IMG/VR virus record: IMGVR_UViG_3300050028_000018
Location: 1-25,468 of that record
Origin: a virus
DNA length: 25,468 nucleotides
Strand: one strand, 5' to 3'
Part shown: positions 2,421-23,235 of the stretch, piece after piece
Layout: the number at the start of each line of letters is the position of its first letter
How positions within the stretch are numbered: position 1 is the stretch's first letter
Made by a program: the position numbers and the translations under genes
The notes under the pieces: generated by a model
Databases searched by the model: none
What the model saw: the letters and a program-made list of their open reading frames with translations, nothing else
What the model was told of the DNA's origin: nothing

Positions 2421-2882
2421 ATGGCGACAATCCTCTACAGGCCGGAATACATCGAGCGTGCCAGGGAAATGTGCCTGGGCGGCGCAACAAACGCTGACCT
2501 CGCGACAGAGTTTGGCGTTGGAACCAGCACGATCAAGTCCTGGCAGGCTAAGTTCCCCGAGTTCCGTGATGTCATGGTAGCCGCAAAGGATGTGGCTGAT
2601 ACACGCGTTGAGCGGTCGCTGTACGAGCGGGCCACCGGATACACGTACGATGCGGTCAAAATATTCTGCGGCAAAGATGGAAAAGTTACGGAAGTCCCTT
2701 ATAAAGAGCATGTTCCACCTGACACTACAGCGCAGATATTCTGGCTCAAGAACCGCAAGCCGGGTGATTGGCGCGACAAACATGAGTTCGAGGGCGAGAT
2801 CGGCATCAAAACCGTGATGGTCGCCAAGCCGATCAAGGATGTCACGCAGCGGCCCGCGCCGAAGCCAGCATTCGAGTCGTAG
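2421..2882 (+). CDS. terS: Terminase small subunit
   Basis: A 153-residue protein starting at ATG 2421, chosen because the upstream gene stops at 2418 and the sequence downstream begins the conserved part. Residues about 8-50 form a helix-turn-helix (YIERAREMCLGGATNADLA, then FGVGTSTIKSWQAKFPEF), the DNA-recognition domain of phage small terminases. The C-terminal half includes FWLKNRKPGDWRDKHEFEGE, a sequence very common in small terminase subunits. It would bind the packaging site and hand DNA to the large subunit encoded next, 1 bp downstream. Confidence 0.85.
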   Translation: MATILYRPEYIERAREMCLGGATNADLATEFGVGTSTIKSWQAKFPEFRDVMVAAKDVADTRVERSLYERATGYTYDAVKIFCGKDGKVTEVPYKEHVPPDTTAQIFWLKNRKPGDWRDKHEFEGEIGIKTVMVAKPIKDVTQRPAPKPAFES

Positions 2883-2883
2883 T

Positions 2884-4521
2884 ATGGCGCATCCTGCGGT
2901 CGTAAACGGTGTGCTTGACACAGATAAGCTGTGGGAGCCAACCGCCAAGAACAAGATCATCCGGCAATCCACCTCGCACAATCGGCTGCGCGTGGGCGGC
3001 ACAGGTTCAAGCAAAAGCTCGGATGCAATGATGGAGATCGTAACTGATTTTCTCTTGCGCTTCCCTGGGTGCTTTGCGCTGATCCTGCGCACGACAATGC
3101 CAGAGCTTGAGCGCTCGAACATCCCAAACTTTCGCGCATACGTTCCGAGCGATCTCTATACGTGGAACGATACAAAGCACATAGCGACGTTTTACAACGG
3201 GTCAAAGCTGTTTTTCTCGCACATGCAATATTTCACATGGAAGGAAATGGAGGCATACCAGTCTTCCAGTTTCCCGGTGATCTTCCTCGACGAGTGCGGC
3301 GGCATCCCAATGGCTGTGTGGGACTTCTTCCAGGCCCGCAACCGTGTCAACCCTGAGTGCCAGCCTGATACCAACGGAGAGTTGCCTATTCCCTGCACGC
3401 TGGGCGCAACCAACCCCATCGGCGCATACTGGGGGGAATACAACGATCGATTCGTCGCGAAGAAGCCGGATGGGCAACCAGAGGGGAGCAAGGCTGATCG
3501 GCACGGGCGCATATGGTCTCCAGTGCGAGGTGCATCATCAGATGTGCGCAACCCGGAAGATTGGCGACTTGAGTACGATCCATTCGAATGGGATTACGTC
3601 CACAGCACAATCATGGATAATCCGCACATGCTGGCGAAAGATCCCGGCATCGTGGCGCGCCTGAACGCCATGCCGAAGGAGTTGCGCGAGAAGCTACTTG
3701 ATGGGCGCTTAGATACAACGGTCGGCCAGTATTTCGATTGCTTTGACCCCAACTTCGACGTAATCAACCTGCGCGAGGATCCGGACGCGATTATCTGGCA
3801 GTATTGGCAACCACGGTGGTTGGGATGGGACTGGGGCCGCGCGCACTGGAACTCAGTCGTCTGGTTCACTAAGGCGCTAGTGCGGCGTGCCGGGGGCGAG
3901 TACAAGCTCAAGACGGTGCAGTACCGCGAGTATGTGGACCGTGGGCGCGATTACGTTGAAATGGCGCAGATTGTAGCCAAGATGACGCGCCTGGGACTGC
4001 CTGGAGCCACAGATGAGGATCGAGCACAGAAGCGCGGCTGCGATTACCGCGCGGCCTACTTCAGCCACGAGAAGTTCGCCAAGCAGATGGAAGCGGAGAG
4101 TCCGGCCGCCAAGCTCAGCAAGTATATGATGGACCTCGGCTTGGCAGGAATGACGCGTGCGACGACTGACCGCGTGGGCCGCGCAACGCTGCTTTACCAT
4201 TTGTTCAAGGTGCGCGAGTTCGTGATTCTGGATAGCTGCCCGGACACGATCAAGGCGCTCCCGCAGTGCACGCGCGATGAGGGCAACCTGGAAGATGTGC
4301 TCAAGGTTGAGACCAAGGGCGACGACGTTTACGACTCGGTTGCGTTGGGTCTGTTCGGCGAGTTGGGCACCCGTCCAAAGCCGCAGGAAGAGAAAGACCG
4401 CGAGAAAGTTGAGTCGCAGGCGGACGAACGTGCTAAGTTTCTTATGAGGTACAAGCTCACGCAGGAGCGCGACCAACGCGAGGCGCGGTCGGAAGAGCGG
4501 CCACCGGAGAACTGGGAATGA
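2884..4521 (+). CDS. terL: Terminase large subunit (ATPase and nuclease)
   Basis: The packaging motor, 545 residues from ATG 2884. A longer frame opens at 2839 but would overlap the small subunit by 44 bp. The ATPase domain has a Walker A-like loop GGTGSSKSS (38-46) and a Walker B strand VIFLDE with Asp136/Glu137. The RNase H-like nuclease domain starts near GWDWG (Asp316) and ends with the acidic pair-plus motif DDVYDSV (Asp480, Asp481, Asp484), which would hold the catalytic metals. Length and domain order are normal for the family. It overlaps the next small gene by ATGA. Confidence 0.95.
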   Translation: MAHPAVVNGVLDTDKLWEPTAKNKIIRQSTSHNRLRVGGTGSSKSSDAMMEIVTDFLLRFPGCFALILRTTMPELERSNIPNFRAYVPSDLYTWNDTKHIATFYNGSKLFFSHMQYFTWKEMEAYQSSSFPVIFLDECGGIPMAVWDFFQARNRVNPECQPDTNGELPIPCTLGATNPIGAYWGEYNDRFVAKKPDGQPEGSKADRHGRIWSPVRGASSDVRNPEDWRLEYDPFEWDYVHSTIMDNPHMLAKDPGIVARLNAMPKELREKLLDGRLDTTVGQYFDCFDPNFDVINLREDPDAIIWQYWQPRWLGWDWGRAHWNSVVWFTKALVRRAGGEYKLKTVQYREYVDRGRDYVEMAQIVAKMTRLGLPGATDEDRAQKRGCDYRAAYFSHEKFAKQMEAESPAAKLSKYMMDLGLAGMTRATTDRVGRATLLYHLFKVREFVILDSCPDTIKALPQCTRDEGNLEDVLKVETKGDDVYDSVALGLFGELGTRPKPQEEKDREKVESQADERAKFLMRYKLTQERDQREARSEERPPENWE

Positions 4522-6481: not shown

Positions 6482-6720
6482 TGGAATTCGAGCAGCAGAA
6501 GCCGATCACGGATGAGTTTCGCAAGGGATGGGAGCGCATCTACGCGCAGCGGGAAGCGTGGAAGTGTCCGCGTCTGTCTGAAGTGAACACAGATGGCGCA
6601 TGTTTGACACCTGAACTTATCCGCAAGACCATTGCGAATTGGAAAATCTCGATGGGACGCTTAGAGTATCCCAACGGCTGCACGATCCTGAGCGAAGGTC
6701 CGCAGAAAGATGATCTCTAA
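6481..6720 (+). CDS. Hypothetical protein upstream of portal (79 aa)
   Basis: The 79-residue frame starts in a TGATG overlap with the previous stop and ends in a TAATG overlap with the portal start. It contains Trp-rich helical segments (FRKGWERIYAQREAWKCPRL) and no recognised domain. Tight coupling on both sides suggests co-translation with the portal. No function is assigned. Confidence 0.6.
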   Translation: MEFEQQKPITDEFRKGWERIYAQREAWKCPRLSEVNTDGACLTPELIRKTIANWKISMGRLEYPNGCTILSEGPQKDDL

Positions 6721-9278
6721 TGGCTGACTCGAACGACAACCGCACCGATGCGCCGATCCTCGACGAAGAGGATCAGGAGCTTGACGAGTTCGACCCGGCC
6801 AGCCTACCGCTCGGCACATTCGCAGCGTTTGATGTGAGCGACGAGCCACTTTGGACCGACAAAGACGGCGAACACCATATAAACCAGGACCAAAAGAACG
6901 CAATCAAGGCGATGGTCCAGGCCGCCGCGCAGGCAGACTCCGTTCCGCACCGCATCGAAATTCAGGGCGCATGGATGCTCGAACTGCTCGACCGCGGACT
7001 TCAGCGGATGCGCACTACCAGCGGCGGCGGCTGGGAACCTTTCTATGGATCTCGCACCGCGTCTATTGGCATGTACGGCGCGCAACAGTCGGGCGGATAC
7101 TACGATACCAACGTCATCGGCGAGAAAAACGACACCATCACCTCGCTACTCTCCTGCGAGATTGCCAGCTCGACATTCTACCCTGAGAAGCCGGGCGACC
7201 CCGACGATGAGGTTTACGCGCAGCAAGCCAACTGCCTGAAGCACTTCTGCGCTGAGGAAAACAACTACGGCGAACTCCAGGCCGAGGTTGGGCGCTATGC
7301 CTGCACGGATGAGACTTCCATCGGCTACACGCGGCCCGTGGCCGACGCGCAGCGCTGGGGCTACGAGGATAACGCTCCCGATGTTGTGCCCGAGACAGAG
7401 GACGGTGAAGACCCCAATGCCAAGAATGCAGCGCAGTCCAAGCGGCCCAAGATTCGCACCCTCACCAATATTTACGGCAAGCTCTCGCGCAAAGTTCCGC
7501 TAGTCGCCCGCTCCAAAGCCGAGTGGGCTTATGCGATGCTGGCGCATGAGATCGATATTTCAATCGCCAAGGCGAAATGCCCGTGGGTGGCGAAGCAGAT
7601 CACCGCGGGCGACATGGGTATCGCGGAACTGAAACTTGACCGCCTGGCGCGTCAGTCTGTGCAGATGGCCATGCAATCGCAGTATGCCACCGGCGACAGC
7701 CTCATGCGCGACGTGACTGAGACGTATGTCTGGTTCCGGCCGAGCTTCTATATGGACGATTCCTGCCCCAAGGATCAGCGCTCATGGTTCTGGACCAACT
7801 TCCCTAAGGGGATGCTTGCAGCCTACGAGTCCGGCGTATTGGCCTGGGCGCGGAATGAATCGATGGACGAGGTTCTGACTGAATTCCATGCACGCAGCGG
7901 GAATGGCCAGAACCGGCGCGCACTGACCGAGAGCTTCGCCGGTCCTCAGATGCGTCTGAATGTACTCGTTGATTTACGCGACGAGTTTTGTCGCAAGTCC
8001 ATTACCCGAGTGGGGCTCGACTCCGCAGTTTGGAACGTGGACAAAATGCGGTCTTCGAGTGTCCGCGCCGGTGTCTATGAGCCGTTTCTGATGCCGGTCG
8101 GCCAGCGCCCCGCCGCCGACACCGTTCTACAGATTCCAGGCACCAACGGCACCCCGGACATTACCGCGTTCATAGACTGGATCAGCGGGCCGCTTGCCGA
8201 GCAGCTAACCCATGCGCAGCAGTCCATGAGCGGAAGCGGCGACCCGAACGATCCGCAGCAGACGGCTACCGAGTACAACCGCAAGGACAAGAACGCGAAA
8301 GCCAGCTTTGGCGAGTGCTGGCGCAATATCCTGCGCGGGTTCGCCAACATCAACACGCAATCCGCCGCGTGGAATGCGCGTGTGCAGCCGGAAAGTGCCA
8401 AGTTTGATTCCAATTTCACCGGCCTGGGCCGCGTTACCGCAGAAATCGGCAAGATGAAGACTGGTGCTGGGGTGGCGCGCGCCGACGGCATGAGCGATTC
8501 GCCCGAATCCTGGGCCGATCGGCAGGCTGCCTGGAAAAAGGCGATGAGCGACCCTGACCCAGCCATGGCCTCAATCAAGAGCGACCCGCAGAACATGGCG
8601 GCTGCCAAACGCTTCATGCCACCAGGGATGGTATTACCGGGCGTGGATGCGGTCGAGAAGCAGCAAGCTGAGTTCGATATTCTGCTCAAGACTGCGCCGA
8701 TGGATAACCCGCAGTTTGTCAAGATTCAGCAACTTGTGCAGCAGGGAACCGCCGCACTCCAGCAAGCGGTGGCAACCGGCCAAGAACCAGACCCGCAACA
8801 GGTCCAAGCATTGCAGCAAGGCCAGCAGATGCTCCAGCAGACACCGCCGATGATCTCGAGCGTGCCGGTACGCGGAGACGGAAGCGAGAACGACGGAGTG
8901 GAGGCGTTGATCTGCCTTCGCATGATGAACTCAGCTGAAGGCCGGCGCTTAGCATCGAGCAAAGACCCTGATGATCAGGCGCACTTCGCCAACCTGCACA
9001 TGCACTGGCAGCAGCACCAGGCCAGCGCGGCCAAACTTGCAGCGCAGAATCAGCAGCCGATCCAGCCAAAGACCAGCCTTACGGTTGCGGTGGACAAGCT
9101 CGACCCGCAGGCGCAGACCTCAGCGCTGCAAAAGATGGGCGTTGCAACCACGCCGGAGGCAATTCAGCAGCAGAACCAACTTGCTCCGCATGAGGTTACG
9201 ACTACCGAGCGTGGCGTGGGGCCGATGGGCAGCGAGATCGAACGCAAAACCAGCGTTGTGGGAAAATCAATCAGTTAG
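6720..9278 (+). CDS. Portal protein
   Basis: An 852-residue protein in the position and size range of large podovirus-type portals, which form the dodecameric DNA channel at one head vertex. The N terminus is acidic. The core has the aromatic and charged pattern seen in portals (for example GSRTASIGMYGAQQSGGYYD near 110-130 and TETYVWFRPSFYMDDSCPKD near 337-356). The last 200 residues are very Gln-rich (about 645-720 and 760-800), as in the helical barrel or tail of many portals. It follows terminase and precedes scaffold and capsid. The call rests on context, length and general composition rather than a single motif. Confidence 0.8.
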   Translation: MADSNDNRTDAPILDEEDQELDEFDPASLPLGTFAAFDVSDEPLWTDKDGEHHINQDQKNAIKAMVQAAAQADSVPHRIEIQGAWMLELLDRGLQRMRTTSGGGWEPFYGSRTASIGMYGAQQSGGYYDTNVIGEKNDTITSLLSCEIASSTFYPEKPGDPDDEVYAQQANCLKHFCAEENNYGELQAEVGRYACTDETSIGYTRPVADAQRWGYEDNAPDVVPETEDGEDPNAKNAAQSKRPKIRTLTNIYGKLSRKVPLVARSKAEWAYAMLAHEIDISIAKAKCPWVAKQITAGDMGIAELKLDRLARQSVQMAMQSQYATGDSLMRDVTETYVWFRPSFYMDDSCPKDQRSWFWTNFPKGMLAAYESGVLAWARNESMDEVLTEFHARSGNGQNRRALTESFAGPQMRLNVLVDLRDEFCRKSITRVGLDSAVWNVDKMRSSSVRAGVYEPFLMPVGQRPAADTVLQIPGTNGTPDITAFIDWISGPLAEQLTHAQQSMSGSGDPNDPQQTATEYNRKDKNAKASFGECWRNILRGFANINTQSAAWNARVQPESAKFDSNFTGLGRVTAEIGKMKTGAGVARADGMSDSPESWADRQAAWKKAMSDPDPAMASIKSDPQNMAAAKRFMPPGMVLPGVDAVEKQQAEFDILLKTAPMDNPQFVKIQQLVQQGTAALQQAVATGQEPDPQQVQALQQGQQMLQQTPPMISSVPVRGDGSENDGVEALICLRMMNSAEGRRLASSKDPDDQAHFANLHMHWQQHQASAAKLAAQNQQPIQPKTSLTVAVDKLDPQAQTSALQKMGVATTPEAIQQQNQLAPHEVTTTERGVGPMGSEIERKTSVVGKSIS

Positions 9279-9766: not shown

Positions 9767-11041
9767 ATGCCAGACGAAGGAATGAGCGCAGTTGCGGAAG
9801 TAGTCGAACCTGTCAATGCGGAAGTTGACGCAGGGGAATCAACCGAGTCAACAGGCGCAGATAAAGGCCAGCCAAAGGTCAAAGAGGGCGAAGGCGATCG
9901 CCAAGACAACCGCCACCAGCCGGATGCGCTCAAGAAGCACATCGCCGACTTGCGCCGCCGCGCGGATGCGATTACCGATCCTGTCGAGAAGAAAGCAGAA
10001 CTCGACCGCATCAAGTTTCTCTATGACACCAGCGGCAAGGCGCGGGGCTACGAACAGCAGTTCTCGACAGTGCGCGAGGCCCGCGAGGTTCGTGCGCTGC
10101 TTGAGTCCGTCGGCGGTCGCGAGGGTGTCACGCAGATGCAGGCCACGCTCAGCGAGATTGAGCAGGTTGATCGCGATTTAGCCGCGGGGAACCCTACTGT
10201 TGCTGATCGCATGTGGGATGAAGCGCCGGACGGTATGCCCAAGATCATGCCCGCGCTGCTCGACAAGTTCGCCCAGGCCAAGCCGCAGGAGTACGAGAAG
10301 TTCATCGCGCCGCGCTCAATCGGTTATCTCGACCAGGCCGGTTTCCCGCAGGCGTTCGACCGCATGGTGCAGCTCTACGATGCGGGCAAGATCGACGAAG
10401 CGCAGGCCATCCGCAACGAACTGATTCAATGGGTGAGCGGCAACCGCCAAGCCGCGCAGCAGCAGAAGCAGGCAGACCCGGAAGTCGAGCGTCTGCGTGC
10501 TGAACTGGCAAAGCGCGATGAGGGACAGGAGTCGCAGAAGGTAGACGCGGCCTACAGTTCCGTTGTGGATCACGCGGGCACCGCCATCGACACCGCAGCG
10601 CGCCCGCTCATTGGTAAGCTGGGATTGTCCCGCGAGGAGAACGCCGCATTCCGCCAAGCGGTCTGGAATCACCTCCAGGAGACGCGCAACGCGCACGCAA
10701 ACTACAAGACCATCGCTCCGGCCAAGCAGCGGCAGGGCTACGACAAGTGGACCGATTACGCCAATCGCTGGACTGACGACAATGCTGAGGCATCTATCCG
10801 CGCCGTGCTCAAAACTCCGCCGTGGAGCCGCATTGCCAGCAGCAAAACACCTGTGACAGCCGTCACAAAATCTCCAGCGCAGGTTTCCGTTCAGAAGGGA
10901 ACCGAGCCTAGCCCGAGCGAGATTGATTACGGTCCGAAGGGATTGCAGGCGGCGCGCAAGGCTGGGTTCAAGGATCTGGGCGATATGCTGCTGAGTGGAC
11001 AAGCGCCAATGAAAAGTGGCGGAATCCGCAAATGGCGGTAG
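9767..11041 (+). CDS. Scaffold-like protein
   Basis: A 424-residue, highly charged helical protein located between portal and major capsid, where scaffolds are normally encoded. The N terminus is acidic and disordered. The middle has long helices, including QVSGNRQAAQQQKQ-type regions near 220-260 and a coiled-coil stretch LRAELAKRDEGQESQKVD. The C terminus is basic (KSGGIRKWR), as expected for the segment that docks on the capsid lattice. The ribosome binding site is AGGATGGAG. No protease motif is seen. Its stop codon lies inside the first copy of a 22-bp direct repeat. Confidence 0.75.
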   Translation: MPDEGMSAVAEVVEPVNAEVDAGESTESTGADKGQPKVKEGEGDRQDNRHQPDALKKHIADLRRRADAITDPVEKKAELDRIKFLYDTSGKARGYEQQFSTVREAREVRALLESVGGREGVTQMQATLSEIEQVDRDLAAGNPTVADRMWDEAPDGMPKIMPALLDKFAQAKPQEYEKFIAPRSIGYLDQAGFPQAFDRMVQLYDAGKIDEAQAIRNELIQWVSGNRQAAQQQKQADPEVERLRAELAKRDEGQESQKVDAAYSSVVDHAGTAIDTAARPLIGKLGLSREENAAFRQAVWNHLQETRNAHANYKTIAPAKQRQGYDKWTDYANRWTDDNAEASIRAVLKTPPWSRIASSKTPVTAVTKSPAQVSVQKGTEPSPSEIDYGPKGLQAARKAGFKDLGDMLLSGQAPMKSGGIRKWR

Positions 11042-11564: not shown

Positions 11565-12098
11565 ATGCCAACCCCACTTTCAGGATACATCTATCTTATC
11601 GGATCAGAGCGATTTGGCTGGTACAAAATCGGCCGGTCATCAGTCCCTCATGTTCGCATATCCAATATTGGAATTTTGTTGCCCTTTAAAATTGATCTAT
11701 TTGCAGTTTGGAGTACGGAAAACCAGTGCTGCCTAGAGGCGTTCCTACACGAAAAATTCTCCGAATTCCAGATAAATGGAGAATGGTTTGCTTTTGGCAG
11801 AGAAAAGATGTTGGAGGTGATTGACGGGTCGTATCCATGGAAAGCGTCTAGAACCGATATTTCCAATGTGTCCTTTTCCAATATCGAGAAAGACCACGTA
11901 ATTGACGGATGGAAGGCAGAAAAGAACAGACTGTTTCAGGAGGCAGTTTCCGCTTACCTAGCAGATCATAACCTAGAGGCTACAAAAGACAATAAAAGGC
12001 TTGCGATTGAAGCCATTAAGGTTGTCCGAGAAAAAGAACGTCCACGCGAACAAAGAAACCGTGATAAGATGATTCACAGCAAAGCCGGGATGTCTTAA
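11565..12098 (+). CDS. GIY-YIG endonuclease (T5orf172/MUG113-like)
   Basis: A 177-residue protein with a GIY-YIG domain of the T5orf172/MUG113 kind: GYIYLI (7-12), YKIGRS (20-25) with Arg24, Glu58 in CLEAFLHEKF with His62, and GEWF (72-75). The C-terminal half is basic and helical, probably DNA-contacting. It has a good AGGAG site and its own promoter-like signals, and is visibly AT-richer than the flanking structural genes. Position between scaffold and capsid, with non-coding flanks on both sides, fits a selfish free-standing homing endonuclease. Homing activity is inference. Confidence 0.8.
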   Translation: MPTPLSGYIYLIGSERFGWYKIGRSSVPHVRISNIGILLPFKIDLFAVWSTENQCCLEAFLHEKFSEFQINGEWFAFGREKMLEVIDGSYPWKASRTDISNVSFSNIEKDHVIDGWKAEKNRLFQEAVSAYLADHNLEATKDNKRLAIEAIKVVREKERPREQRNRDKMIHSKAGMS

Positions 12099-12244: not shown

Positions 12245-13567
12245 ATGCCTACCCTTTCAGAAGCAGCCGTAGAATCAATCGAACTGGAGCAGGTTGGGCG
12301 CGAAATCGCCATCCTGTGGCCGACCTTCAAGGGACTCTACAACGAGTTCCAGAAGTCCGCGAAGAAAGTCAACATCGCCAATGTGACGCAGGCAGCGGGA
12401 ACCACCCGTTCGGCCTGGCGCGAACCCATGATCACGCAGGGTGCTTCGGGCATCAGCGTTGGCACCGGCGACGGTTCCGCGCTCGGCCCCGGCACCGGCT
12501 CGCAGACCGCATCGTTTGCCATGGCCCCTATCTGGGCTTTCAATGTCACGCAGTACACCCGTCTGGCCGAGCTGGCCACCAACGGCGCAGAGCGCGCGGT
12601 CGAATCATTCACCAAGAGCGAAATCAAGCGCAGCATCAAACAGTTCTACAACGGCATTGAAGGCCTGATGAATGGCGATGGCTCTGGAGCGTTTGACCAG
12701 ATTCCAGCAAACGCGGTCATCACCACTGGCGGATCCGGCAACACGACCGCTGTGATTCAGGGAATTCAGTGCGCTGCAGCCTTCGTCGATCAGCAGGTTG
12801 TGCAGATCTTCCCGTCTGAAGGCGGAACCTCGCGCGGCAACGCGACAATCGGCATTGTCAGCGTCGTCGAGCAGAAACTGAACTTCTCTACCGCGCTCCC
12901 GGGCGGCACCACGCAGGGCGACTACATCATGGTTGCCGGCGCATCGGGCGCGGTGGGCTCGTCCGTCCTGGGAATCCCCTACTGGAATACCAACGGCAAC
13001 GTTGGCACCAAGGGCGGATTGACCATGGCGAACTACCCGGATCGACTTAGTACCCCGGTCATCAATCTTGGCGGCGCGCAGATTACTCCCAGCGTGGCGC
13101 AGAGGGCCTTCGTGCTGCTTACCCGCGCACTGGGCGATGATGCCGAGGAACTGGACAAGGGCGTTTGGTACGGCAAGCCCGAGCAGGTTGCCACCATCGC
13201 CGCGCAGTGGTACTCGACGCTCATCACGCAGAACAGCGAAGGCCGCGACGGTGCGCAGTTCGACCGTGCACGTCCCGGCGTGGCGAAGGAGTTCGGCGAT
13301 AAGCCGTTCATCTACTCGAACACCGCCAAGGCCGGTCGCGCCGATCTGCTCTTCCCGGAAAACTGGGCGCTGGGCGAACTCTGCCCGGTTGGCCTGTACG
13401 ACTTCGGCGGCGGCAACACGGTTATGCCAGTTCCCGACACCAGCGGCGTAGCAGGCGCGACCTACCTCACTGCCAAGATGTTCGTTTATGAGGTTGGACT
13501 TCAAGTTTGTAATAGAATCCCTCGCCACGGCCTTTTCGTAACAAACGCCGGTACAATCCAGATTTAA
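12245..13567 (+). CDS. Major capsid protein
   Basis: A 440-residue protein following the scaffold-like gene, with the length and Gly/Ala/Thr-rich composition of HK97-fold phage capsid proteins. The N-terminal helix (ESIELEQVGREIAILWPTFK) resembles the N-arm, the middle has many short beta segments and Gly loops, and the end (FVYEVGLQVCNRIPRHGLFV) reads like a terminal beta strand pair. A strong AGGAG precedes ATG 12245. It is flanked by endonuclease genes on both sides. The last 80 bp are AT-richer than the rest of the gene. Confidence 0.8.
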   Translation: MPTLSEAAVESIELEQVGREIAILWPTFKGLYNEFQKSAKKVNIANVTQAAGTTRSAWREPMITQGASGISVGTGDGSALGPGTGSQTASFAMAPIWAFNVTQYTRLAELATNGAERAVESFTKSEIKRSIKQFYNGIEGLMNGDGSGAFDQIPANAVITTGGSGNTTAVIQGIQCAAAFVDQQVVQIFPSEGGTSRGNATIGIVSVVEQKLNFSTALPGGTTQGDYIMVAGASGAVGSSVLGIPYWNTNGNVGTKGGLTMANYPDRLSTPVINLGGAQITPSVAQRAFVLLTRALGDDAEELDKGVWYGKPEQVATIAAQWYSTLITQNSEGRDGAQFDRARPGVAKEFGDKPFIYSNTAKAGRADLLFPENWALGELCPVGLYDFGGGNTVMPVPDTSGVAGATYLTAKMFVYEVGLQVCNRIPRHGLFVTNAGTIQI

Positions 13568-13605: not shown

Positions 13606-13621
13606 CAAGGACGGTGACTCC

Positions 13622-14080
13622 ATGACAATGGCAATGATACCGGTTTGCAGAAAGTGCGGGAACCCAAAAGATTATGTCATCAAGAGCGGAAAACGCGCGG
13701 GGAAGTATCACACGTATTGCCGAGCGTGTTTATCGGCTCAAGTTGTTGCGTGGCAGCGAAGTAACCCTGAGCGTAGCCTTGAAAGGCAACGGGCATATTG
13801 GCGAGATAATCCAGACCGAAAACTGCGCGCTCAGCTTCGTAGATACGGCGTGGATGAAGTCTGGTACAAAAATAAGCTCGATGCTCAAGGTGGAGTTTGT
13901 GAGATTTGCCACCGCAAAGAGGAAACTGCGCAGTGGGCTCGTCTCAGCGTCGATCACAACCATGAAACTGGTAAAGTTCGAGGCCTTCTCTGCAATACCT
14001 GCAATATGCGCCTCGCTGGCCTAGAAGCACACGAATGGCTTGCATCGGCGATGGCATACTTAACGCAGTATCAACCCTGA
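13622..14080 (+). CDS. HNH endonuclease, endonuclease VII type
   Basis: A 152-residue protein from ATG 13622; a TTG at 13583 is possible but lacks a leader, while AGGACGG lies seven bases before 13622. It has an N-terminal zinc-ribbon-like set (CRKC 9-12, CRAC 33-36), a basic helical middle, and the endonuclease VII core: CEIC (93-96), DHNHETGKVRGLLC (111-124) and CNTC (124-127). The Cys residues would bind zinc and His112/Asn113/His114 would form the beta-beta-alpha-metal active site. This group includes Holliday-junction resolvases and homing-type nucleases. Insertion directly after the capsid gene favours the latter. Confidence 0.85.
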   Translation: MTMAMIPVCRKCGNPKDYVIKSGKRAGKYHTYCRACLSAQVVAWQRSNPERSLERQRAYWRDNPDRKLRAQLRRYGVDEVWYKNKLDAQGGVCEICHRKEETAQWARLSVDHNHETGKVRGLLCNTCNMRLAGLEAHEWLASAMAYLTQYQP

Positions 14081-14095
14081 AAGGACGGTTTCAAG

Positions 14096-14497
14096 ATGGA
14101 AGTTCAGGATTCGCGCACAGTTAGCGGGCATAAGCAGGATGCGCCCAAAGTCGAGATCAACGGGCCGGTGGCCGGGTTCGTTCCCGCATTCGACCGCGTT
14201 CTCATCAAGCGCCTTCCCAAACCCTCTGAGTCGATCAACGGCATCATCCGCCCGGAGATCATGCAGGAGCAGGCCGCCCGCGGCTTTGTCATTGCCGTTG
14301 GCGAAAGTGCGCACCCGCTGCCGCCTGTGGGCGCAGTTGCCAGCTTCAGCAAGTTCGCTGAGGAAAAGCACTTCGACGACGAGGGCGCAGACGAATACGC
14401 GCTCGTGTGGAACGTGGATATTCGCGGGTGGCATTATCTGCCGACTTACGAGTTGCGCACAGATGGAAATATTTACGAGGTGGGTAAAGATGCCTGA
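14096..14497 (+). CDS. GroES-like co-chaperonin (Cpn10 fold)
   Basis: A 133-residue protein whose residues 30-120 follow the Cpn10 pattern: PAFDRVLIKRLPKPSE (compare P-L-x-D-R-V-L-V-K-R), GIIRPE (49-54), ARGFVIAVGE (61-70), a central PPVGAVASFSKFA strand and a final region around EYALVWNVDIRGW. The mobile loop between the first two motifs is short, and an N-terminal extension of about 28 residues and a C-terminal tail are added. The T4 gp31 precedent suggests it could replace host GroES when GroEL folds the capsid protein encoded just upstream. The ribosome leader contains AGGACGG. Confidence 0.75.
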   Translation: MEVQDSRTVSGHKQDAPKVEINGPVAGFVPAFDRVLIKRLPKPSESINGIIRPEIMQEQAARGFVIAVGESAHPLPPVGAVASFSKFAEEKHFDDEGADEYALVWNVDIRGWHYLPTYELRTDGNIYEVGKDA

Positions 14498-18780: not shown

Positions 18781-21700
18781 ATGCCCGGTCAGCCGGTCGT
18801 ACTTGATTCATTCGGAGGACTTGTCACGACGACGCGCCCGGAGGATTCACCCGAGGGCGCATCGCCGCGCAATAATGACGTTGATTTTATCGTTGGACGC
18901 TTTATCCAGCGGCCAGGCTGCCAGAGCGTCTATACGCTTGCGCAGGCGCAATATGGTCCAAATGGCGGGGCATCTGCGACAGTTATTGATACTATCCTGA
19001 GTTCTTGGGTGAATCCAGCAAACATCCTGCTCGACAATGAGACTTACGCCACTACTACGCTTGCTGGTCCCTCTGCTGCTAACTACGCGGTTCAGTCCAT
19101 GGCGATCACAACGGGAGGATACTACACACCCAGCGAAACACCTGTAGCCGAGTTGAGCGGCTTTGGAGCGGGCGCGATATTCAGTTTTTCCGTAGGAACC
19201 ATTACGCCAGCCGTGGGCGATCCCTACAATACGGTTACCGGCGTGACTGTCTTGACGGGCGGCATTTATACGGGCCCGGTCGCAATCAATTTTTCTGGAG
19301 CATCTGCTGGTAACAATGCTGCGGTCTCTGTCACGATGCAGCCTTTGGCATCAACCCTTGCGCTATCCAACATTCTTCAGGTGACGGGATTCTCGCTGCC
19401 GATTACGGCCACCTATCAGATCAACGGTATCGGCGTAAATGTGCGTGGGTTCGCTCCTTCCGGCGCAACGGTCTTCGCGCAACTGCTCAAGGCCGGCGTT
19501 CCCGTCGGAGACGTAGAAAGCCTTGCGCTGCCTGCGACAAATGGATATGTTGCACTGGGAAGTCCGATTGATCTATGGCTTACAACGTGGCTGAACACCG
19601 ACACCGACTCGCCGGGGTTCGGCGTGAATCTTTGGGTTGGATCAGAATCAGCATCGACAGTTTCGCTAGATTATGTCGAAATTGTCGTTTATGGCAAACC
19701 GAAGAGCGCGAACTTCAACGGGATTGGATCGGTCAACCTGAATCAGACAGACCAGACCACACTCACGATCGATGCCAACGGCCTGACATGGAAAGAGGAT
19801 GCAAGCAACAATCCAGGGATTCTCTATCTTGAGACTGGCATCCCGGATGTAATGGTGGACAGTTTCCTGAAGGCTATCGACGCTAACGGCGTAGCCTTTA
19901 TGGCTTATTCAGACCTCACGCAGGGTACCTCGCAGCCGATGCAGTACAACGGCGCATGGTGCGACCGCATTACGCAGGTAGGCCCCGGTGTAGCTCCGAA
20001 CTTCACGCCCCAGCAAACATCAACGAATAGTTTCGCGGTTACCCTCATCAAGCAACCCGCGCAAATGTCTGACCCAGCCGACTATGGGCACATCAACGTG
20101 CTACAGCAGAGCGCCGGTCCATCCAGCACCGCTCCAGGGAACACGGTGACGGTTTTCTATGCGAATTCGCAGTATTATCCGCTAGACTCTGACTTGGTGG
20201 ATGCCTACAACTCAGGGAATCCAGTCTATGTTTACGTTTCAGGGACGAGCCTCGCGGCGGCTAACGGAACATTTCTTGTAACAGGAATTGGCAATTCGAT
20301 TCCACCTGGGGGTGCCTATTACCGCTGGTACTTCACATTTCAGGTTGCAAGCACGGCCTATCAGCAGTTTGGCGGACCGGATGATTCGCCGGGTTACTAC
20401 CAGCGCACGCTAGCGACGATGATTGTCGCAACGCCCGTCCCTGGATTGACGGTCGGCAACCAAGTCACCATCTCCGGAAACTCGAACAGCAACTACAACG
20501 CGCAGTGGACTATCACGCAGGCGCTCAATTCCGGAGCATCGCGGATCACTGCTACGTCGGTTACCGGAGGCGTGGCGACTTACCAGTATTCCTTGCAGAG
20601 TGGGCAGCCGCCTGTGGCTGGCGAACTGGTGACGGTGACGAACACCACGAACGCCCTCGGTGCGCTGAATGTGACTCAGGCGACAATCGCCTCATCCACG
20701 GCCTACGGCGGCACAGTGAACACCACTGGCACCGCTGTAACCTTGGTCAGCGGGAATGATTTCTCTTCGCTGACGAACGGCCAAGCGATCACCATCAATA
20801 GCGTAGGCTACACGATTTCAACGGTGAACAGCCCGACGAGCATCACGCTATCATCAAGCGCGGGAACGCTATCCGGGGCGGTTTACACTGCGGGAACCCT
20901 AAACGTGGGCAGTTTTACCGTGCTAGTTCCGATTACCGCAACCTACGGTTCTACTCCGGAGCCGACCAACGCCAGCGCAACGACGGCGGGAACTGTCTTT
21001 ACGTTCGATCCAGGGGCGCTGGTAGTTGGCACCTCGACAAACCCGATTTACGGCAGCGGTCACGGCGGCTCCTTTATCTTCGTCAGTGCGGCCAGCCAAG
21101 TTATCACGTCTGGCGTGAGACAAGGCAGCGTGTTCTTCATCACCCGCAATGGGGCGGTGACGCGGCCAGCTCCCCCTGTTCAGTTCACTGTGCCAGAGAA
21201 CTGCGGCGCGATCATTGCGAATCAGGTTCCAATCGGGCCGGAAAACGTTGTGGCACGCGGGATCACGTTCACGGAAAGCGGACAGAATCAGGTGGCTGGC
21301 GCTAACTTCTACTATTACGACACGGCGCAGACCTACTATGTAAATGGCATCAAGTATACGTCTGACGCGCTGATTATCCCGGACAACACAAGCACTAGCG
21401 CGACATTTTCATTTTCAGATGCGGTGCTTTTCGCGAGCGATGAGATCGACATTCCCGGAAACGATTACTTCAACCTGATCGAACTTGGAAATCCTGCCTG
21501 GATTTTCCAATATGCGAACCGGATGCTTTACGGCCTCTGTCAGACGAAGATTCAGAATTTTCTGAACATGAGCTTCGATGGGGGATACCTGCCTACTGGA
21601 TCTTCGGCGCTTCCAATGCCGACGGGATGGAACGCTCCATCCACCAACCCAAGCATGGGGTTAGTGCAATCGCTGGACTTCGGAAACGCATTCCAAATCG

Positions 21701-23235
21701 TAAATCCGAACGATTCAGCTTGGACAAATGCGCAGGTACTTTATCAGTCTGCCTTCCAGGATTATCTGAACGTCAATATTATCCAGCCGAACACGTCCTA
21801 TTCTGTGCGCGTAAAGGCGCGCTCGATCTACGCGGACGGGCAGACGGTAACGCTCCAGCTTCCTACCTACGCGAACGGCGCTTTCTCGCCTACGGTCTCA
21901 GGGTCAGCGTCATTCACGTTAAACCAGGGCAATTACGAGATTCAATCCGCGCCGCTGATTACCGGAAACGGGCTTGCGACGGTTCCAACCGCTCTTCAGA
22001 TCGCGTTGGGCGTGAGTGCGCTGTCCGTTGGCGCTGGGGTGGAGATCGACCGCATTGAAATCTTCCCGACGAACCGCCCGGTGGATACAACGACTATCTG
22101 GACCAGCTACGCTGGTAAGTTTGAATCGGTGGACATTAACACGGGCACGCTCGGCGTAGGCGCGGACAATGCGCAGGCGGCAACTGGCGCTTTCGAGATT
22201 CTGGAGCAACTTTACATCGAAAAGTCCAAATCGCTTTGCGTAACACAGGATTCACCCAACTATGAGCCGAACAATTGGCAGGTGCGCCAAGCCAGCGACC
22301 GCGCCGGGGCGGTAGGCCCGAATGCCTTCGATGAAGGCGAGGAATTCGCGGTATCTGCCAGCCGGAACGGGGTCTACTACTTCGATGGCGGCAAGCCGCA
22401 GCCGATTTTGCGCGAACTACAGAACAGCGCGAAGGGCCTTAACCTCTGGGAATCGATCAACTGGGAAGCTGGCGCGACGATCTGGATTCGCAACGACCTG
22501 AACAACCGCCGACTAATGATCGGGATTCCCATGATTACGCCGAATCCGTGGTTGCCAAATGCTGCCGCATCAACCCCCATCAGCCCGAATATCATTCTGA
22601 TGTGCAACTACACCGGCTGCCCAACCGGCGCAGAGCTGGCCGAAAGCAGCGAGGTCCATGTCACAATGTTTGGCGACCTGAAGGCGCTCGACATGCGGCG
22701 CAAGTGGTCGCTTTGGCAGATTCCCTGCCCGGTTGCCGAATTTGTGCCACGGACGGATGGGTTTACAACGCCGCTTTTCCTTTGTAATGGAAACGCTTCG
22801 GGAAAGATTTACCAGCTTCTGCCCGGCGCTGCAGATGGCAGCGGCCAGAATGACGACGACGGCGCTGCGATCAACTGGAGCTATTGCACTTGCGGTTTCG
22901 TCAAGGGGAAGGCTGGGCAGCAGGTTCAAGGCTTGGGAGCGCTTCGCAAGATCGCCTACTATTTCACTGCGACGATGGAAGGGATAGGGCAGGTTGCCGG
23001 AAAGCTCTACGCAAACTCGCTAGGGGCGCTTGGGCGCAACACGTTCACGATTCCGCTGCCGTTCACACTCAGCTCCCCGCAGCAGAATGACCAAGAGAGA
23101 ACGCTGGAATTTGGCGCACAACGTATTTTCGTGGAGTTTTCCTCTATCGGAAGCGGTGGATATGCGGAAATTGGATCTGTCACTCTGGATATGGATGCAG
23201 ACAAAAATAGTCCACACAGGGGCGTGTCGTCATGA
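18781..23235 (+). CDS. Very large tail/hub protein (1484 aa)
   Basis: The largest gene of the window. The N terminus (VVLDSFGGLVTTTRPEDSPE, then NNDVDFIVGRFIQRPGCQ) resembles tail nozzle or hub proteins of short-tailed phages that start with this kind of beta-propeller strand. The long middle is Gly/Thr/Ser/Val-rich with Ig-like modules (for example GNQVTISGNSNSNYNAQWTI near 560 and GQAITINSVGYTISTVNSP near 668). The C-terminal third (RNGVYYFDGGKPQPILREL, then a final LEFGAQRIFVEFSSIGSGGY) looks like a second ordered domain. It would form much of the tail below the adaptor. The exact role is inferred. Confidence 0.6.
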   Translation: MPGQPVVLDSFGGLVTTTRPEDSPEGASPRNNDVDFIVGRFIQRPGCQSVYTLAQAQYGPNGGASATVIDTILSSWVNPANILLDNETYATTTLAGPSAANYAVQSMAITTGGYYTPSETPVAELSGFGAGAIFSFSVGTITPAVGDPYNTVTGVTVLTGGIYTGPVAINFSGASAGNNAAVSVTMQPLASTLALSNILQVTGFSLPITATYQINGIGVNVRGFAPSGATVFAQLLKAGVPVGDVESLALPATNGYVALGSPIDLWLTTWLNTDTDSPGFGVNLWVGSESASTVSLDYVEIVVYGKPKSANFNGIGSVNLNQTDQTTLTIDANGLTWKEDASNNPGILYLETGIPDVMVDSFLKAIDANGVAFMAYSDLTQGTSQPMQYNGAWCDRITQVGPGVAPNFTPQQTSTNSFAVTLIKQPAQMSDPADYGHINVLQQSAGPSSTAPGNTVTVFYANSQYYPLDSDLVDAYNSGNPVYVYVSGTSLAAANGTFLVTGIGNSIPPGGAYYRWYFTFQVASTAYQQFGGPDDSPGYYQRTLATMIVATPVPGLTVGNQVTISGNSNSNYNAQWTITQALNSGASRITATSVTGGVATYQYSLQSGQPPVAGELVTVTNTTNALGALNVTQATIASSTAYGGTVNTTGTAVTLVSGNDFSSLTNGQAITINSVGYTISTVNSPTSITLSSSAGTLSGAVYTAGTLNVGSFTVLVPITATYGSTPEPTNASATTAGTVFTFDPGALVVGTSTNPIYGSGHGGSFIFVSAASQVITSGVRQGSVFFITRNGAVTRPAPPVQFTVPENCGAIIANQVPIGPENVVARGITFTESGQNQVAGANFYYYDTAQTYYVNGIKYTSDALIIPDNTSTSATFSFSDAVLFASDEIDIPGNDYFNLIELGNPAWIFQYANRMLYGLCQTKIQNFLNMSFDGGYLPTGSSALPMPTGWNAPSTNPSMGLVQSLDFGNAFQIVNPNDSAWTNAQVLYQSAFQDYLNVNIIQPNTSYSVRVKARSIYADGQTVTLQLPTYANGAFSPTVSGSASFTLNQGNYEIQSAPLITGNGLATVPTALQIALGVSALSVGAGVEIDRIEIFPTNRPVDTTTIWTSYAGKFESVDINTGTLGVGADNAQAATGAFEILEQLYIEKSKSLCVTQDSPNYEPNNWQVRQASDRAGAVGPNAFDEGEEFAVSASRNGVYYFDGGKPQPILRELQNSAKGLNLWESINWEAGATIWIRNDLNNRRLMIGIPMITPNPWLPNAAASTPISPNIILMCNYTGCPTGAELAESSEVHVTMFGDLKALDMRRKWSLWQIPCPVAEFVPRTDGFTTPLFLCNGNASGKIYQLLPGAADGSGQNDDDGAAINWSYCTCGFVKGKAGQQVQGLGALRKIAYYFTATMEGIGQVAGKLYANSLGALGRNTFTIPLPFTLSSPQQNDQERTLEFGAQRIFVEFSSIGSGGYAEIGSVTLDMDADKNSPHRGVSS

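Follow-up and report, generated by a model that had tools for sequence, protein, structure and literature searches.

A divergent GroES-like co-chaperonin encoded beside the probable capsid gene of a phage, with a short roof loop and an arginine in the GroEL-contact tripeptide

Introduction

Bacteriophage T4 encodes its own Cpn10, gp31, which has a known role in head morphogenesis. gp31 takes the place of GroES on GroEL and so allows gp23 to fold (PMC3012670). It has no roof loops and folds gp23 together with GroEL; its flexible loop was given as 22 residues, compared with 16 in GroES, under a loop definition that differs from ours (PMC6318259). Both gp31 and CocO are able to replace GroES for all essential folding in E. 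coli (PMC3012670). GroES of E. coli contacts GroEL through the tripeptide Ile25-Val26-Leu27, and the L27A variant is unable to interact with GroEL (PMC3514286). The gp31 gene adjoins rIII and 31.1 and lies outside a head cluster, as do the Cpn10 genes of many other phages, for example SP-15 and Vibrio phage D93.

Other phages carry an annotated Cpn10 gene within their head module. These include HTVC023P, CRP-902, DSL-LC04, ct2G2228, ct2os315, Alcaligenes phage QDWS535, Shewanella phage 1/44 and others, and in HTVC023P-type pelagiphages GroES is a core gene (PMC9599517). Cpn10 genes are widespread among phages: across 50,697 phage records, we found matches to Thermus GroES in 110, some of which look like bacterial DNA filed under a phage name. 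Head-module Cpn10s of phages are already known. What is new in the locus described here is a divergent Cpn10 clade, the loss of the roof and an arginine where GroES has Leu27.

Results

The window, the whole stretch of DNA analysed, comprises 25,468 nt of the virus record IMGVR_UViG_3300050028_000018 (positions 1 to 25,468). An open reading frame at 14096-14497 on the plus strand, with an ATG start and an AAAGGA-type ribosome-binding site upstream, encodes a protein of 133 aa. The first-pass annotation had seen a Cpn10 signature in this protein, and Pfam, PHROGs and NCBIfam agree. The match to PF00166 scores 27.9 bits (curated cut-off 21.1, E=2.5e-6) and covers profile positions 3-70 of 93, compared with 3-90 in the relatives, which are IMG/VR contigs. 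PHROG 3188 (phrog_3188, 'co-chaperonin GroES') is matched at 7e-4, and the GroES models of NCBIfam at about 3e-6, which is under their curated cut-offs. All ten family members match PF00166 (E up to 1), the L005 record under the cut-off. When a profile of ten relatives was searched against the PDB, the 18 chains found at E<0.002 were all Cpn10 or Cpn20, and no non-Cpn10 chain appeared at E<1. Pairwise dN/dS of the gene among relatives, where computable, was 0.07-0.22, which shows purifying selection among them. Library matches, PDB profile search and dN/dS together place the Cpn10 assignment well beyond chance. AlphaFold2 models of the family (pLDDT 42) and of the capsid candidate described below (pLDDT 29) were not usable because the underlying alignments were too shallow. 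A tblastn search with the Cpn10, capsid and portal proteins gave no matches in the 50,697 phage records, and no proviral or host context for the Cpn10 or capsid gene was found in the genome contigs searched.

Loop lengths were measured on a single alignment, in which the family was joined by the GroES proteins of E. coli and Thermus, by T4 gp31 and by 18 further phage Cpn10s. The Thermus sequence was taken from the PDB search and the phage sequences from database records; E. coli GroES was included as its commonly known sequence. The mobile loop (residues 40-61, 14213-14278, plus strand) sits between the first two core strands. It had initially been described as short, but at 22 residues it has exactly the length found in E. 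coli and Thermus GroES, with 20-22 residues in the relatives and 27 in gp31. The short element is instead the roof-loop region (residues 70-78, 14303-14329, plus strand), which has 9 residues where GroES has 17 and gp31 has 10. Not every family member shows this loss: the relative L033 has a roof region of 16 residues. Both termini extend beyond GroES, as the first-pass annotation had stated, but only the N-terminal extension is a family trait. It comprises residues 1-28 (14096-14179, plus strand), is conserved at 28-35 residues across the family and is absent from GroES. The C-terminal extension of 20 aa (14435-14494, plus strand) is shared only by the window and one near-identical contig, L002, whereas the other relatives stop 2-5 residues past the Cpn10 core. 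In L005, the Cpn10 stop codon overlaps the next gene.

In the mobile loop, the residues aligned with the GroES contact tripeptide are I50-I51-R52. The codon of Arg52 (cgc, 14249-14251, plus strand) aligns with GroES Leu27, and the family tripeptides I-I-R, I-V-R and L-I-R all end in arginine (10/10 members). Among the 21 comparison sequences, the third residue is Leu in 15, Ile in five and Arg in one, from phage MinM2. The hydrophobic IVL-type tripeptide expected of a GroEL-binding co-chaperonin is thus absent from the family. Shifting the register by one would give some members a fitting L-I-I, the tripeptide of gp31, whereas that of the window protein would then begin with Gly; the Pro-Glu that follows also fixes the register used here. 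The invariant arginine, the one puzzling point, is what chiefly argues against a GroEL contact of the standard kind.

In a phylogenetic tree, which resolves relationships at the level of clades, the present family forms a clade (support 100/98) apart from that of the podoviral head-module Cpn10s (99/97). The latter group (HTVC023P-type phages, CRP-901-type roseophages, DSL-LC04, ct2G2228, QDWS535 and MinM2) resembles the present locus in having a podovirus-type Cpn10 in the head module, many with N-terminal extensions of 18-45 residues, and MinM2 shares the I-I-R tripeptide. It differs in that the portal gene and the capsid gene enclose the Cpn10 gene, which precedes the capsid gene by about 2 kb, and that the roof is mostly of full length (15-21 residues; 9 in ct2os315). 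For the gp31/RB49 CocO group, the measured comparisons are with T4 gp31. Like the present protein, it is a Cpn10 of a phage and has next to no roof loop, but it has the longer mobile loop, L-I-I as its tripeptide and no conserved N-terminal extension, and it sits on a separate branch. Bacterial GroES shares the Cpn10 core and the mobile-loop length, and differs in its 17-residue roof, the Leu at the third tripeptide position and the lack of an N-terminal extension.

The gene order around the Cpn10 gene is TerS-TerL, portal candidate, scaffold candidate, capsid candidate, Cpn10. The terminase pair was assigned through PHROG 979 and PHROG 309; the large subunit (2839-4521, plus strand) matches phrog_979 at 3.5e-19 and phage terminases by tblastn. 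The probable portal protein (6720-9278, plus strand; 852 aa) is proposed from its position and is conserved in 29 viral loci, and the probable scaffolding protein (9767-11041, plus strand; 424 aa) from position and composition. The 440-aa protein encoded at 12245-13567 (plus strand) is probably the major capsid protein, mainly by gene order. It matches the NCBIfam model capsid_maj_Podo under the cut-off (E=0.007), has no confident family match in Pfam, PHROGs or the PDB, and its profile showed no similarity to the CRP-2 coat protein or to the HTVC023P-type capsid protein set.

Cpn10 is the next conserved gene after the probable capsid gene in 13/13 informative contigs. They comprise the window plus 12 further contigs, some of them near-identical; each contains the whole capsid gene and DNA beyond it, and their capsid identity is 74-98%. 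The gap between the two genes is 26-84 bp in most relatives. In the window and some relatives it holds an endonuclease gene, so that the first-pass placement next to the capsid gene is right as to the conserved order but not as to immediate adjacency. The intervening endonuclease VII/HNH gene (13613-14080, plus strand; PF02945, 5.6e-18) is absent in L003, L005 and L010. Together with a T5orf172/MUG113 homing-type endonuclease gene at 11565-12098 it brackets the capsid gene, and both are missing at that site in L003 and L010. Different HNH genes occupy the capsid-Cpn10 junction in L027 and L034, which marks it as a recurrent insertion site. Read by eye, extra ORFs in the head block of relatives look DNA methyltransferase-like and DEDD-type exonuclease-like (L024 5027-5830 and L003 1592-2065).

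Neither the window nor the scanned parts of a 45.6-kb relative contained a recognisable tail tube, sheath or tape measure gene. Together with the weak podoviral capsid match, this is compatible with the short tail suggested by the first-pass annotation, without proving it. A protein of 1484 aa (18781-23235) with no confident family match is placed where a tail or tail-spike protein would be expected. A perfect tandem repeat of CAGAA (8.8 copies) occupies 570-613, close to the record's left end. The ORF at 675-1046 contains a Tlde1 / L,D-transpeptidase-like domain (PF10908, 2.3e-12); it lies beside a possible Rz-like spanin ORF and is possibly part of the lysis cassette. Scans for tRNAs and Rfam families gave no matches. 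A Cpn60 (GroEL) gene was found in none of the ten viral records searched, while all control genomes were positive; as these records are possibly fragments, the phage may still carry one elsewhere.

Discussion

We propose that the protein probably acts as a capsid-dedicated Cpn10 lid for host GroEL, as gp31 does in T4. By analogy with gp31, seven copies would assemble into a ring and close host GroEL late in infection. Loss of most of the roof loop would make for a more open lid, like that of gp31, and the protein folding inside would be one of the phage head, most likely the 440-aa capsid protein encoded nearby. Cpn10 membership, a mobile loop of GroES length, the short roof, the strict linkage to the capsid gene and purifying selection all favour this reading, as do the negative Cpn60 search in the ten viral records and the head-module Cpn10 genes of other podoviruses. 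Counted against it are the arginine at the third tripeptide position, the lack of a confident family match for the capsid candidate and the low pLDDT of the Cpn10 model. The argument from a larger cage is weaker here, as the capsid candidate is smaller than gp23. The gp31-like strategy suggested at first pass thus agrees with the Cpn10 sequence, the capsid linkage and the roof-poor lid, but not with the unlengthened mobile loop or with the place of the gp31 gene; a role in the head, known for gp31 in T4, is here inferred from genetic linkage.

Alternatively, the protein could be a general replacement for GroES that sustains folding capacity or steers GroEL to many phage proteins, with its position among the head genes reflecting late expression. 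The capacity of gp31 and CocO to take over all essential folding in E. coli (PMC3012670) would fit such a role, as would the many phages with Cpn10 genes outside head clusters. We consider it unlikely, though not negligibly so, given that every informative contig has the gene in the same place behind the capsid gene, across the observed range of capsid identity. The same strict linkage would also suit a protein that kept the Cpn10 fold but lost its function with GroEL and now serves in the virion or in its assembly, for example as a ring or plug of the head, and both the invariant arginine at a GroEL-contact position and the conserved, novel N-terminal extension speak for such a change. Without GroEL binding, however, the mobile loop would be expected to decay. 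Its length and the flanking I-I/V and P-E are instead kept, which makes a GroEL-independent role improbable. The partial PF00166 match of the window protein could even suggest a head-completion protein that resembles the first half of Cpn10 by chance. This is hardly credible and was rejected: the relatives align over nearly the whole profile, every family member matches PF00166 and the PDB search returned Cpn10 folds only.

If the capsid-dedicated lid is the correct reading, such GroES-like lids would occur in several unrelated phage lineages, and roof loss, believed to enable gp31 to fold a capsid protein that is oversized, would also be found beside a smaller one. The invariant arginine offers a clear and cheap test of how strict the contact rule between GroES and GroEL is. 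We tentatively suggest, as a less likely extension, that lids with this arginine may fit a divergent host GroEL or use another contact, making them private lids that host GroES could not replace. MinM2 may represent an independent case. Its Cpn10 (L046 6944-7324) belongs to a second lineage, with I-I-R, a place in the head module and a full roof loop. Since it sits in a different supported clade, the arginine seems to have arisen twice.
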